Assembly: GCA_030671165.1 (NCBI GenBank)
Contig: DAOVAG010000010.1
Location: 1-13,247, forward strand
Length of the DNA stretch: 13,247 bases
Source: Candidatus Bathyarchaeota archaeon
GTDB lineage: Archaea; Thermoproteota; Bathyarchaeia; RBG-16-48-13; GCA-020355125
Direction: 5' to 3'
Each line of letters begins with the position of its first letter. Position 1 is the stretch's first letter. The translations under genes were made by a program, and so were the position numbers. Below the pieces are notes generated by a model, which worked only from the letters and a program-made list of their open reading frames with translations, was not told the DNA's origin and ran no database searches. This document shows positions 3,360-10,607 of the stretch, in pieces.

Positions 3360-4826
3360 CTATACATCTCCCAAGGGACGTTTCCAAACTTCTTTTAAGC
3401 GGTTAATATCTGAATTAATAATGTAGATCCCATCTAAGCCTGTAATCTTTAATCTCTTCTCATCTGTAACAACCCCTATTTCCGTGCAGGTATTTCCTCT
3501 CATCACTACCTCGAATTCTTCTTTCATATTCTTTGGGACTGTGACTATAAATCTGCTGTTAGACTCTGAGAAGAGTACTACATCATTTCTTCTAACTCCA
3601 GAATAAGGAATTTTGCTTAAAGAAACGTTTAATCCATATCCCCCCGCAAAAGCGCTTTTTGCAAGAGCTACCCCCAATCCTCCTTTTGTCGGTGTGTGAA
3701 TTGAATGAACTAGACCTCTATTCGTGGCTTCACTCATACTTTTATAAATCTCCTTAGCTTTTTCTGCATTAACTATTGGAACACAATTTCCAACATAACC
3801 CACACCCCTCATTTTTTCTCCAATAAGTTTATAGTATTCTGAACCCCCCAACTCGTTAAAAGTTTCTCCGACGATGTAGACAATGTCTCCAACTTTCTTA
3901 ACATCCATCGTCACCGCTTTTCTGATATCTTCCATCTTTGCTATTACGGTTATTAAAAGGCTGGGAGGAATGGAAACTTTCATTCCATCTATTACTCGGT
4001 CACACTTCATACTGTCTTTACCAGAGATAAAGGGTAAACTGAAGGCCCTAGAGTAGTCATATAATGCCTTATTTGCCCTCACGAGTTGAGCTAGTTTATA
4101 ATCTCCATCCGTCGTCTTCTCTGATGGTTCAGGATCAGGCCAACAGAAATTATCCAAAGCAGCGAATGGAACTTTCTTACTGGGTAATTTTCCCCCAACT
4201 GCGATAACTCTCCTTACTCCCTCATCAATCGCTGAAGCTGCCATGTGATAAGTATCTATATCTGAGTAATGTGGATTTAACCCATTTGCGAAAATTATGC
4301 CCTCTATGGAACCATACTCTACAAGGCAAACGGTAGCATCACTCGGAACATCTTCTTCTCTTCCCACTAGAGGTTTAATTACGCTTAAACCTTTAACTTC
4401 GTGGTCATACTGTCGTAGCTTCTTCTCAATAGAACAAATATTGAGTCTCGTGAGCATTTCCTCTAGTATTACTGTCAAATCAACCGTTTCATAACATTTA
4501 GGCTCTTCATGAATTCGTTTCTTCCAAACCGCTTTTAGCCGCTTCTTGGGTACTCCTTCATGGAGGAATTTCATATCAAGATACCCAACTGTTTTGTCAT
4601 TATATTTCACATGAAACTTTCCTGAATCAGTAAACTTACCTAAAATAGTTGCCTCAACATCCCTTTTATTTGCCAACTCAAGGAATTGTTTAATTTTGGT
4701 GTGATCAATAGCTAGGGTCATCCTTTCTTGAGCTTCTGAGAGTAGGATTTCCCATGGCTGTAATCCTTGATACTTTAATGGAGCCGTTTTTAATTCTATT
4801 TCACAACCGCCACTATATAGCGCCAT
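3360..4826 (-). CDS. purL: FGAM synthase PurL, C-terminal half (after in-frame stop)
   Basis: This 488-residue frame continues PurL in the same reading frame as the upstream half, separated only by TAA 4827-4829. It begins MALYSGGCEIEL, matching the GEMA...GG..E.. stretch of intact PurL without its Gly-Glu, and runs through PLKYQGLQPWEILLSEAQER at 17-35, YDHEVKG at 140-146, AVGGK at 209-213 with FAALDNFCWPDP at 221-232, PFISGKDSM at 265-273, LGGSEYY at 326-332, TPTKGGLGVALAKS at 378-391 and FSESNSRF at 419-426. These are the tail of the first AIRS_C domain and the whole second PurM-like half. ATG 4826 could serve as a start only by reinitiation: no good Shine-Dalgarno precedes it. The stop is TAG. 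purQ follows after three bases. The coding frame is well preserved, so it is not an old pseudogene. Confidence 0.88.
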   Translation of the reverse strand: MALYSGGCEIELKTAPLKYQGLQPWEILLSEAQERMTLAIDHTKIKQFLELANKRDVEATILGKFTDSGKFHVKYNDKTVGYLDMKFLHEGVPKKRLKAVWKKRIHEEPKCYETVDLTVILEEMLTRLNICSIEKKLRQYDHEVKGLSVIKPLVGREEDVPSDATVCLVEYGSIEGIIFANGLNPHYSDIDTYHMAASAIDEGVRRVIAVGGKLPSKKVPFAALDNFCWPDPEPSEKTTDGDYKLAQLVRANKALYDYSRAFSLPFISGKDSMKCDRVIDGMKVSIPPSLLITVIAKMEDIRKAVTMDVKKVGDIVYIVGETFNELGGSEYYKLIGEKMRGVGYVGNCVPIVNAEKAKEIYKSMSEATNRGLVHSIHTPTKGGLGVALAKSAFAGGYGLNVSLSKIPYSGVRRNDVVLFSESNSRFIVTVPKNMKEEFEVVMRGNTCTEIGVVTDEKRLKITGLDGIYIINSDINRLKEVWKRPLGDV

Positions 4827-4829
4827 TTA
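4827..4829 (-). other. In-frame TAA interrupting purL at the conserved Glu of GEMA
   Basis: Minus-strand codons here read ATC GGG TAA ATG GCG. PurL proteins have Gly-Glu-Met-Ala at this point, after DNGAGGLSSSV, so TAA stands where GAA is expected: a single base change. The Met after the stop is the conserved Met, not a new start region. The break falls in a helix of the first AIRS_C domain, not in a linker. Confidence 0.9.
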
Positions 4830-6362
4830 CCCGATTGATGAGGCTAAACCACCCGCACCATTATCAGTAATGCATCTGTACATTCCTAAATCTCTAGCTT
4901 CTAGAAGGAACTCACTCATCATTTTTTGAGTAATAGGATCTCCAATCTGTACAGCTTGGACTGGTGACCCTCTATGCAGCTCTTCTGATGAGAAGGTTGC
5001 TCCATGAATTCCATCTTTCCCTATTCTCCCACCAACCATGACGATTAAATCGCTTGGATTAACCGTTTTTATGTGAGAAGGAAGCCCATTTTTTTCCTTT
5101 GGCATTATACCAAAGGTACCACAATAGACAAGAGGCTTAGCTTCACCGAACCGTTTATCAAAGATCTCTCTACCTATCACAAGCGGTATCCCACTCTGGT
5201 TACCCCCATCAATTATTCCTCTATGTACTCCTTCTCTAATTCTTCGAGGGTGAAGAAATTGTGTTAAGTTCTTACTTTTGTAGAATGGGCTACCAAAACA
5301 GTATGTGAAAACATTGAACATCAATTTAGCTCCAATACCGGTACCTAAGGGGTCTCTATTAACCCCAACTATCCCCGTCATAGCACCACCATATGGCTCA
5401 ATAGCTGAGGGTGCATTATGCGTTTCAACCTTGGCTACAATGTTTAATGTATCATTTAATTTTATAACTCCTGCATTATAAACAAAGATGGATACTAACC
5501 AGGAAAAATCTTTCATAATCTCTTCCGTACATTTCCTTATATAACTCTGAAAAAGACTATCGATCTCTTCTTCCTTATCTCCATCTCTGTAATGGATTAA
5601 GGCGTTGAAGATTTTATGTTTACAGTGCTCTGACCATGTTTGAGCAAGGGTCTCAAGTTCTACATCGGTTGGATTTCTACTTAATCCCTCTCTCTTTCGC
5701 TGTTCTGTTATCTCTTTATCAAAAAAATAATTCTTGATTATTTTCATCTCATCTAGCGTTAGTGCCAGTACACCCCTTCTACTGATCTGTATAAGTTCCT
5801 CATCACTAACTCTTAGATCATACTCTTTCACCTGAGGCTCCTGTTTCCAGAGAACGATAGGTGTTCGTATATTGATACCTTTTTCTAACACTTCTCTGTA
5901 GCTTAGAACCGTAAGGTTTTCGATGATTTCATTTGATAAAAGTTCTTTTCCAATCCTTTCAATTTCTATTAGAGATAATTTAGCACTCTTTATGAGATAT
6001 TGAATAGATGTATAGACTTTTTCTTTTTCTCTAACTTTTCTCTTTAACAAATTTTGAATGGCTTTTCTCGCTGTTTTCCCAACATTATCAGTAACACCCG
6101 GTTTATATCCAACTTCCATAAACCAATTAAAACTTGGAAGCTGACTAGAAACCTCTTCGATTATCGGATCTACAAAGAGTTCTCTCTTAACTTTCTTCAA
6201 CTCTTCTAAGTTTAACTCCATATCCAGAGTATATACTCTTCTAGTCTTTACGTGGTCAACCTTAATCCCTAGAAAATTATAGATATCCGTTTTAGTTCTT
6301 TCACCGAGAGTGTCGACTATGTTCGGTTTAAACTCCACTTCTATTCTGTAAACCATTTTCAC
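4827..6362 (-). CDS. purL: FGAM synthase: tandem PurS domains fused to PurL N-terminal half
   Basis: The 511-residue product has two PurS-like repeats, about 4-72 (YRIEVEFKPNIVD...VDPIIEEV) and 80-153 (WFMEVGYKPGVTD...SNEIIENLTV), then the first PurM-like half of PurL. PurL marks are the catalytic-His motif TWSEHCKHKIF at 242-252 (His246), KVETHNAPSAIEPYGGAMTG at 311-330, VNRDPLGTG at 334-342, DGGNQSGIP at 385-393 and TDNGAGGLASSIG at 499-511, where the frame stops. The PurS pair presumably replaces the separate PurS dimer, like the N-domain of large PurL. THNAPS replaces the THNHPS common in small PurL. With the downstream half the full protein would be about 1000 residues. The longest frame opens at GTG 6362; ATG 6356, two codons in, gives the more usual PurS start. 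It is the first gene of the leftward operon. Confidence 0.88.
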   Translation of the reverse strand: MKMVYRIEVEFKPNIVDTLGERTKTDIYNFLGIKVDHVKTRRVYTLDMELNLEELKKVKRELFVDPIIEEVSSQLPSFNWFMEVGYKPGVTDNVGKTARKAIQNLLKRKVREKEKVYTSIQYLIKSAKLSLIEIERIGKELLSNEIIENLTVLSYREVLEKGINIRTPIVLWKQEPQVKEYDLRVSDEELIQISRRGVLALTLDEMKIIKNYFFDKEITEQRKREGLSRNPTDVELETLAQTWSEHCKHKIFNALIHYRDGDKEEEIDSLFQSYIRKCTEEIMKDFSWLVSIFVYNAGVIKLNDTLNIVAKVETHNAPSAIEPYGGAMTGIVGVNRDPLGTGIGAKLMFNVFTYCFGSPFYKSKNLTQFLHPRRIREGVHRGIIDGGNQSGIPLVIGREIFDKRFGEAKPLVYCGTFGIMPKEKNGLPSHIKTVNPSDLIVMVGGRIGKDGIHGATFSSEELHRGSPVQAVQIGDPITQKMMSEFLLEARDLGMYRCITDNGAGGLASSIG

Positions 6363-6732
6363 ATCTTTCCATTTACCGTTTAATCCATTTTATTTTTCTA
6401 TAGGTATGTTCACAGCGTACATTGTTTTAGATCCGAATATTCATCAAGGAGTAAACCTATCTCAAGCCCCACTCCATATATTACTTTAAACTTATATATC
6501 TTTATCATCTATTTCAGTAAAATTAACAATAATATGTATAAAATAAAGATTAATCATATTACTCCCTTAAATTAAATGATAAATCATTTCAACTTTTACA
6601 TAAAACATCATAATTAAAAGTTTTGAGGAAGAAAAAGAAAAGTATTTCATATTCCTGAATGCGTCAAATCAATAAATAACGGATTGAAAGTATTGTACAT
6701 ATATCTAAAAAAAGACTTATGGAGAATGGAAA
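6363..6732. promoter_or_regulatory. Divergent control region between the two purine operons
   Basis: The 370-base AT-rich region lies between the leftward purL operon and the rightward purE operon. It must hold both promoters. A TATA-like stretch at 6490-6499 can serve the minus strand with a leader of about 105 bases, and 6671-6679 or 6696-6705 may serve purE. Two inverted repeats lie in the middle (listed separately). The segment 6405-6485 is richer in G+C and holds unsupported short frames: minus 6410-6508 (32 residues, MIKIYKFKVIYG...) and plus 6406-6489 (27 residues). Neither has a ribosome site. No tRNA or other structured RNA was recognised. Confidence 0.5.
6545..6589. repeat. Two operator-like dyads, same phase, 30 bases apart
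   Basis: The right dyad at 6574-6589 is a perfect 7-base inverted repeat with a two-base spacer (AAATGAT AA ATCATTT). The left one at 6545-6558 is close to the same pattern (AAAGAT TA ATCATA). Corresponding G positions are 6548 and 6578, about three helical turns apart, placing both on the same DNA face. This is compatible with cooperative repressor binding between divergent operons, but AT-rich DNA makes such dyads common. Confidence 0.3.
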
Positions 6733-7218
6733 ATGGTGGACGAGAAGATAATAATCATAATGGGATCTAAAAAGGATGAAGAATTTTCAAACCGCATATG
6801 TACCTGTCTAAATAAATTAAGCGTAACATATGATCGAAGAGTAGCATCTGCTCATAAAACACCGCAAAAACTCCTAAAAATAATCGAAGAATATGAAAAA
6901 ACGGAAGATCGACTTGTTTACATCACTATTGCAGGTAGATCAAACGCGCTTTCAGGCTTTGTTGATGCTAATACGAGATATCCCGTGATAGCGTGTCCGC
7001 CAAGTTCGAATAGGTTTGGACCTTTTGATATATATTCATCCCTAAGAATGCCTAGCGGTGTGTCACCCTTAGTCATTCTTAACCCTGAAAACGCAGCACT
7101 TGCCGCTGTGAAGATTTTGGCTCTAACGAATCCAGACTTAAGTAATAGAGTTCTTGATTATCAACGAAGAATAAAAGACATAATTGAGCGCGCTGATAAA
7201 AAAATGAGAAACGTTTAG
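6733..7218 (+). CDS. purE: AIR carboxylase, class II PurE
   Basis: PurE makes CAIR from AIR. The 161-residue protein has the PurE fold marks: MGSKKDEE at 10-17 and VASAHKTP at 37-44. The middle is not the usual bacterial AGAGGAAHLPGM; it reads AGRSNALSGFVDANTRYP at 67-84, then CPPSSNRFGPFDIYSSLRMP at 88-107 and SGV. That matches the animal PAICS carboxylase domain (AGRSNGLGPVMSGNTAYP, CPP, SSLRLPSG), which is class II: it uses AIR and CO2 directly and needs no PurK. No purK is present here, and the next gene is purC, the partner fused to it in animals. The start is ATG 6733 with GGAG eight bases upstream. It is the first gene of the rightward operon and ends 11 bases before purC. Class is assigned from motifs only. 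Confidence 0.93.
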   Translation: MVDEKIIIIMGSKKDEEFSNRICTCLNKLSVTYDRRVASAHKTPQKLLKIIEEYEKTEDRLVYITIAGRSNALSGFVDANTRYPVIACPPSSNRFGPFDIYSSLRMPSGVSPLVILNPENAALAAVKILALTNPDLSNRVLDYQRRIKDIIERADKKMRNV

Positions 7219-7229
7219 AGGGATATAAA

Positions 7230-8135
7230 ATGCATTTAGTCAAATCTGGGAAAGTGAAGGATGTTTACGCTGTAAATGATAAAGAGCTAGAGTTCAAATT
7301 TTCAAACAGGATTTCAGTCTTCGATAAGATTATACCAAGCGAAATTCCAAATAAAGGAGAGACACTAGCTAGAACAAGTGCTTATTGGTTTGAACTTATC
7401 CAAAAACTTGGAATTTCAACGCACTATCTTGGTTTAACAGCTCCGAATAGAATACGTGTTAAGCGCGTTAATGTGATAAGTGATTATAGTTTATTGACCA
7501 TGAAGACTGTGAAATACCTTATCCCCTTAGAATGTATTGTTCGATATTATGTCTATGGTTCCCTTTGGGATCGAGTATCCAAGGGAATAATAAAACCAGA
7601 GAAGTTAGGATTCCTTCCTGGACATGATATTAAGATTGCTGAGAAATTACCACAACCGTTTTTTGAGGTTACTACAAAACTTGAGAAGATAGATCGAAAA
7701 TTAACTGATGAAACAGCGTTAAAAATTTCCGGTTTAACTTTGGATGAATATACTTCGATTAAAGATGTATCATTGGAAATAGATGAGATCATCAAGTCGA
7801 GTATAAAACAGAGCGGTTTACTTCATGTTGATGGTAAGAAAGAGTTCGCTTTTGATGAAGATAGAAATCTGATGGTAGTGGATACTTTTGGGACTGCTGA
7901 TGAAGATAGATTTTGGGATATAAAAGAATTTGAAGATGGAAGATATGTTGAACGGAGTAAAGAGTTTGTTAGACAGTATTATAGAAAGATTGGTTACTAC
8001 GATGAGTTGATGAAGGCAAGGGAAGACCGTGAAGCAGAACCACCTATACCCGCCTTACCAGACGACATCATTCTACAAATTAGCCAGATTTACATTGATC
8101 TTTTTGAAGATTTAACTGGGCAGAGTTTTAGGTGA
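7230..8135 (+). CDS. purC: SAICAR synthetase
   Basis: PurC joins aspartate to CAIR with ATP, giving SAICAR. The 301-residue protein shows the expected order: SGKVKDVY at 6-13, SNRISVFDKIIPSEIPNKGE at 25-44 (usual TDRISAFD.. and IPGKG), an IVRYYVYGSLW stretch (usual VVRGY..GS.W), the substrate strand FFEVTTKLE, a DGKKEFAFDEDRNL segment (usual DTKFEFG) and VDTFGTADEDRFW (usual D...TPDSSRFW), ending in QISQIYIDLFEDLTG. It is longer than the 235-240 residues of bacterial PurC and nearer to the roughly 300 seen in long forms. The start is ATG 7230 with a GAGGGA ribosome site just after the purE stop. Its last codons, AGG TGA, form the ribosome site of purB, so the two are tightly coupled. Confidence 0.94.
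   Translation: MHLVKSGKVKDVYAVNDKELEFKFSNRISVFDKIIPSEIPNKGETLARTSAYWFELIQKLGISTHYLGLTAPNRIRVKRVNVISDYSLLTMKTVKYLIPLECIVRYYVYGSLWDRVSKGIIKPEKLGFLPGHDIKIAEKLPQPFFEVTTKLEKIDRKLTDETALKISGLTLDEYTSIKDVSLEIDEIIKSSIKQSGLLHVDGKKEFAFDEDRNLMVVDTFGTADEDRFWDIKEFEDGRYVERSKEFVRQYYRKIGYYDELMKAREDREAEPPIPALPDDIILQISQIYIDLFEDLTGQSFR
8130..8135 (+). promoter_or_regulatory. purB Shine-Dalgarno built from the purC Arg-stop codons
   Basis: AGGTGA serves as the final Arg codon plus TGA stop of purC and as the ribosome site for ATG 8142, six bases downstream. It decides the purB start and indicates translational coupling. Confidence 0.75.
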
Positions 8136-9566: not shown

Positions 9567-10607
9567 TTGTTTGAAGGAAATGCTATTAGATATCTCAATG
9601 GGCTATCATCCATGTTCAACTCTAGGTTTATAACTCATAAGCCTTTTTTCCTCGCCCACGCTATCACTTATGCCTGTAACTCTAGGTGTAAAACATGTAC
9701 CTATTGGAGAATGTCTAATCAGATTGATAAGAACTTGAAAACTGAAGAGATATTTGATCTTCTAGTTAATGCTTACAACATTGGAATGCGGGGATACTAT
9801 CTTTTCGGTGGGGAACCTCTTGTCATGAAAGATATAGAAGAAATACTGAGCTTTGCTAAGAGGAAAGGGTTCATAACAACGATGAATACAAATGCATCCC
9901 TACTTAAACAAAAAGCTGAATCTTTATCTGATAACCTTGACTTTGCTTTCGTCTCATTGGATTACCCTGACACTCATCATGATTATATACGTGGGCGAAA
10001 AGGTTCATTTTATGAAGTTGTTGGAGGTATTAAGAGGCTTCAAGAACTTGGGAAAACAAGAATTACATTAGTATCAACTATAAGTAACCTAAACTTTGAT
10101 AAAATTGAGGCTATGGCACAATTTGCAGTAGATCTAGGGATCGGGATCTCTTATAATGCTGTTGAACCCACTGTGCAATCAAGTTTTGAAGAAGGACGAA
10201 CTGATTCAGTTGTTAAGAATTATGGTCTAAGTAGTTTGGAACTTCAAAAGTTCTATGAGACTCTTTTAAGACTCAAGAAGGAAAAATATCCTCTTATGGA
10301 GACAGAGCAGGTCATCAGGGATCACATCGCAAATAAACCCTTTAAATGTTACTTTCCAAAAATTTTCGTTTATGTTTCACCAGATGGAAAAATATTCTCA
10401 TGTACATATGATCACACCTATGATTTGAAAACCGGTTCCTTCGAAGATTACTTTAAGAGTAAACTATATCAAAATCATGTTAAGATGGCTGAAACCTGTA
10501 ATATTTGTCTTCGAACATGTGTGCGTATGTATTCATATACCTATGCTCTTTATCCTAGACATTTCTTCAGATTGATTAGCGATATAAAGATCTTAGCGAA
10601 ACAATAA
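9567..10607 (+). CDS. Radical SAM protein with SPASM-like C-terminal cysteines, function unknown
   Basis: The 346-residue protein has the radical SAM cluster motif CNSRCKTC (Cys37, Cys41, Cys44), the SAM-binding GGEP at 81-84, and a barrel-like middle. The C-terminal part has Cys261, Cys279 and then CNICLRTC (Cys311, 314, 318), a SPASM/twitch-like set that probably binds an auxiliary iron-sulfur cluster. The last 30 residues (ALYPRHFFRLI) are hydrophobic-basic and may contact a membrane or partner. The family includes peptide-modifying and cofactor-forming enzymes; I cannot assign a substrate. The start is TTG 9567, supported by GGGGGAAG about eight bases upstream; ATG 9612 is an alternative. 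It lies 45 bases after purB. A TATA-like TTAATATATTATG at 9540-9552 suggests it may also have its own promoter. A link to purines is only positional. Confidence 0.85.
   Translation: MFEGNAIRYLNGLSSMFNSRFITHKPFFLAHAITYACNSRCKTCTYWRMSNQIDKNLKTEEIFDLLVNAYNIGMRGYYLFGGEPLVMKDIEEILSFAKRKGFITTMNTNASLLKQKAESLSDNLDFAFVSLDYPDTHHDYIRGRKGSFYEVVGGIKRLQELGKTRITLVSTISNLNFDKIEAMAQFAVDLGIGISYNAVEPTVQSSFEEGRTDSVVKNYGLSSLELQKFYETLLRLKKEKYPLMETEQVIRDHIANKPFKCYFPKIFVYVSPDGKIFSCTYDHTYDLKTGSFEDYFKSKLYQNHVKMAETCNICLRTCVRMYSYTYALYPRHFFRLISDIKILAKQ

Follow-up and report, generated by a model that had tools for sequence, protein, structure and literature searches.

PurSL, also called 'mdPurL', is an FGAM synthase whose N-terminal region resembles PurS, and PMC3261824 describes archaeal examples of it. 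The purine gene studied here is like this enzyme in its composition. It has an N-terminal PurS, followed by the FGAR-AT linker, AIRS and AIRS_C, in about 1000 aa and with a separate purQ adjacent. It lies in the window, by which we mean the whole stretch of DNA that was analysed (13,247 nucleotides), and it is a single archaeal PurSL gene (fused PurS-PurL, FGAM synthase) that carries one stop. Judged from sequence comparison, this stop is very probably a private and non-functional break in an ordinary archaeal purSL, and a functional two-part enzyme would not be made from it.

Architecture and setting of the interrupted gene

The first-pass annotation had described a purL frame cut by one in-frame TAA exactly at the glutamate of the conserved GEMA motif and followed by ATG, with both flanks forming one continuous frame (511 positions, the stop and 488 positions). 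It turned out that this description holds. On the minus strand the codons around the break read ...GCC TCA TCA ATC GGG TAA ATG GCG CTA TAT AGT GGC..., in which TAA is 4829-4827 and ATG begins at 4826. The two ORFs lie in one frame, the upstream one terminating at this TAA and the downstream one running from the adjacent ATG to its own terminator at 3360-3362. The coordinates are collected in Table 1. With ATG 6356 as an alternative start, the N-terminal part has 509 aa, and the near-identical protein P0121 begins there.

Table 1. Features of the purSL region, in window coordinates
Feature	Position	Strand	Remark
purSL 5' part: PurS, FGAR-AT linker, AIRS, start of AIRS_C	4827..6362	(-)	511 aa from GTG 6362
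In-frame TAA in purSL	4827..4829	(-)	column otherwise invariant Glu; residue 510 counted from ATG 6356
purSL 3' part: two AIRS_C stretches (Pfam)	3360..4826	(-)	488 aa counted from the post-stop Met
Leu codon, third after the stop	4818..4820	(-)	private to the window; Arg in C45 and G002
Tyr codon, residue 293 (D293Y)	5478..5480	(-)	Asp in 116/116 fetched full-length PurSL proteins and in P0121
Stretch matched end to end by C45 (3337 bases, same bin)	4447..7784	.	91% identity, unbroken frame across the site

Above the Pfam cut-offs, the N half contains PurS, the FGAR-AT linker, AIRS and positions 2-76 of the 156 positions of AIRS_C, while the C half contains AIRS_C in two stretches. The domain order expected of PurSL (PurS, FGAR-AT linker, AIRS, AIRS_C) is present across the two halves, and the N half stops at position 76 of AIRS_C, which places the break inside the first AIRS_C domain, as had been proposed. 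The halves also tile the NCBIfam model TIGR01736, the N half covering positions 10-262 and the C half positions 271-714 of 718, and each half alone scores below the curated cut-off of this model. The TAA/ATG break is more than a chance boundary between ORFs. What the window does not encode is one unbroken chain with the GEMA-type glutamate of a PurSL, the place of this residue being taken by the TAA.

The window is contig C214 of the bin G000, a Bathyarchaeota-type genome (227 contigs, 1.18 Mb, 77% complete, 3.9% contamination). On the same strand, purSL has as neighbours purM, purQ and a purD that is truncated where the contig ends. The other genes of the window are purE, purC, purB (adenylosuccinate lyase), a radical SAM gene, nadC, an S17e gene and the start of a thermosome gene. 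The frames of purM, purQ, purE, purC and purB are open, and that of purD is open up to the contig end. No second complete copy of purSL was found in the bin at this completeness, and the window contained no match to tRNA or Rfam families. Besides, the radical SAM protein that adjoins the purine genes (9567-10607, plus strand) has rSAM_PTO1314 as its nearest NCBIfam model, with 124.7 bits against a cut-off of 306.05 bits.

State of the codon in relatives

The codon was read in the loci taken from the best-match lists, most of which are distant; of these 120 loci, all but L034 and L072 cover it, leaving 118. These 118 loci represent 111 distinct segments of 123 nt, of which 110 have Glu and one, that of the window only, has TAA. 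In this set the split is shared neither by relatives nor by other assemblies, all of the other distinct segments (110 of 110) being unbroken at the codon. At the protein level, the column is Glu in every fetched protein of 900-1100 residues (116 of 116), which bears out the glutamate that had been expected at the stop codon. Glu is also found in all 316 proteins that matched a fixed motif expression among the 355 fetched; the 39 unscored ones include fragments, variant motifs and the C half of the window itself. In the PurL chains from Thermotoga, and likewise in the 3viu chain, the residue aligned to this column is Glu. The glutamate that corresponds to it in Salmonella PurL is a metal ligand.

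All near relatives that can be read at this position are unbroken. Contig C45, from the same bin G000, keeps its frame open across the site and encodes Glu at the codon; purSL of G002, from the same genus, is unbroken; G003 and G005, from the same family, are unbroken at the codon, and so are the 998-aa proteins P0240-P0243. In the other genome of the genus, G001, the gene is represented by its 3' end only, which is uninformative at the codon. The first-pass annotation had considered that an unbroken purL in all near relatives would speak against its proposal of a split, and this is what we found in all those that can be read across the codon. Since the stop is absent from all examined relatives, its most likely origin is either an error of assembly or base calling or a mutation of very recent date.

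The search covered 101 genomes, with G000 among them, and gave a match in 87; internal stops were listed for two of these, G031 and G087. As far as the matched stretches can be read, neither shares the stop of the window. For G031, the matched stretches contain no stop and its locus L118 has Glu at the codon; because these stretches are free of stops, the listed TAG is probably the end of the gene itself. For G087, the TAA lies elsewhere in its PurL. In this PurL, a distant one from the same class (contig C25, locus L119), the in-frame TAA follows 46 residues of the match to the C part.

Private changes and strain mixture around the stop

Two more codons of purSL in the window are of note (Table 1). 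The Leu after the stop stands at a variable position and is found in 13 of the 316 scored proteins. The Tyr at residue 293, by comparison with the family, makes this the second site of the gene that is suspicious. P0121, encoded on a contig of 1312 bases, is identical to the window in 389 of 391 residues; the differences are the D293Y site and one Arg/Lys, for which P0121 has Arg and the window, C45, G002 and P0240 have Lys. Because P0121 ends before the stop codon, no second contig of the exact strain covers the site.

For the 124 columns that are invariant in all others, the window departs at two. The same count over the 116 relatives gives no departure in 89, one in 17 and two or more in 10, so two departures are not extreme, although the seven nearest relatives that were tested have none. 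At columns conserved to at least 95%, the window departs at 4 of 244, and the two beyond the stop and D293Y are milder. An excess of G-to-T changes, the signature of damage or error, was not found in the substitution spectrum of the window versus G002. That G-to-T is not in excess and that relatives, too, depart at invariant columns would both argue against a simple error.

Over its whole length, contig C45 is closer to G002 (95% identity) than to the window (91%). One end of it consists of 137 bases identical to the window (window 4447-4583, positions 1-137 of locus L032). At the sites that distinguish the window from G002, C45 has the G002 state in 119 and the window state in 21 over 4900-6356; over 4447-4799 it has the window state in 32 and the G002 state in 7, and the intermediate interval gives 3 to 2. 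C45 changes haplotype close to the stop, and strains have therefore been mixed or recombined around it. Since C45 is window-like at its 3' end and yet unbroken, the bin contains an intact codon next to a 3' flank that is for the most part window-like. Bin G000 mixes at least two close strains, or recombination occurred. In all, three observations point to a problem of the contig or to strain mixture: the D293Y difference from P0121, the private stop together with the private Leu, and the haplotype switch of C45.

Explanations of the break

An ATG directly follows the stop. Under stop-start reinitiation, ribosomes would terminate at the TAA and reinitiate at the adjoining ATG, and the two chains would assemble into a natural two-part PurSL. 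Besides the position of the ATG, the preserved frame across the stop and the conservation of both halves agree with this, and 8 of the best 120 matches to the C half (window aside) begin at, or one residue from, the same Met. We nevertheless hold it to be very unlikely. Glu 510 would fall in neither chain, yet it is the invariant residue of the full-length proteins described above. The ATG encodes the normal Met of the family, present in 261 of the 316 scored proteins, and hence needs no special explanation. The 24 bases preceding the stop are identical in the window and in the unbroken C45 and G002, so no new signal for the start of translation is seen there in this comparison. Apart from the window, none of the loci spanning the codon is broken at it, and of the best 120 matches to the N half none ends at the break. 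Some database proteins begin at the GEMA Met and at first sight resemble natural C-terminal halves. Among the best 120 C-half matches, 74 proteins start with Met, of which six (window excluded) begin exactly at the GEMA Met and two are one residue off, and other conserved Mets at offsets 31, 71 and 93 have 10, 6 and 11 starts. Starts at the GEMA Met are no commoner than at these Mets, as genes cut at contig ends would give, and because of this equal pile-up in the start histogram we read them as probable contig-edge gene calls. Outside the window, the C half finds its best match at 66% identity. These comparisons give no support to a natural split of FGAM synthase. That a real stop and its stop-start pair would yield two chains forming a working FGAM synthase without the invariant Glu, as a newly arising split of PurL, seems to us highly improbable.

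An amino acid might instead be placed at the TAA by readthrough or an altered code, in agreement with the continuation of the frame past the TAA and the conservation on both sides. However, purQ, the radical SAM gene and nadC of the window all terminate in TAA, no other locus spanning this codon has a stop there, and no internal stop was contained in any of the 42 matches in G000 to PF00005 and PF04055, the two Pfam families by which nonsense elsewhere in the bin was sampled; we give readthrough almost no credence. A long-standing pseudogene in a purine auxotroph would be in line with the broken frame and with the lack of another complete copy in the 77% complete bin, but it is extremely improbable in view of the state of the two halves. 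Neither has a further stop, and each aligns to G002 as one piece. Their dN/dS values against G002 (0.151 for the N half with 509 codons and 0.161 for the C half with 488 codons) are within the range of the neighbouring intact genes purM (0.080), purQ (0.087), purE (0.208) and purC (0.210). Signs of decay, either relaxed selection or extra lesions, were thus not found in either half when the window was compared with G002 (dN/dS 0.15 and 0.16). The break is young or unreal, since dN/dS of both halves is ordinary and purifying, and these values indicate that normal constraint acted on purSL until very recent times, or that it still acts. The first-pass annotation had already argued from the intact rest of the operon against long-standing loss; the open pur frames agree with it, and dN/dS now adds to the same argument. 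Among the four options listed there, a recent null mutation and a base or assembly error survive, while a two-part PurL by stop/start and readthrough are left unsupported.

For the private break, the chances are roughly even that it is a consensus or assembly error in a strain-mixed bin. Two or more close strains would have been mixed in the bin, and an error of consensus or assembly would have placed the stop. Alternatively, the break would be a loss-of-function allele that arose very recently in one strain, within a population where intact copies also occur; this is a serious possibility, whose probability we put somewhat below one half. In that case one strain would recently have acquired the null allele, with intact copies persisting in the population. 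If the stop is real, the N-terminal chain would be truncated and inactive, and FGAM synthase would be lost in those cells.

Comparison with known systems

We know of no natural split of FGAM synthase at this place, and the present one would be the first if the stop were real and functional. The case is mainly a call for caution. When a stop falls on a conserved residue and an ATG comes next, a designed split can be mimicked, although the ATG comes from the protein motif and the stop occurs in a single contig of a bin that mixes strains.

In conclusion, the locus is similar to the sporadic in-frame stops in metagenome-assembled genes, like the TAA in PurL of G087, in that a single codon is broken and the frame is intact on both sides. 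It differs from other sporadic stops in that the break hits an invariant residue and has an ATG adjoining it, which made it look designed. Compared with PurSL or 'mdPurL', whose domain content it shares, the window copy is distinguished by one stop at the position where all full-length homologues (116 of 116) have Glu.
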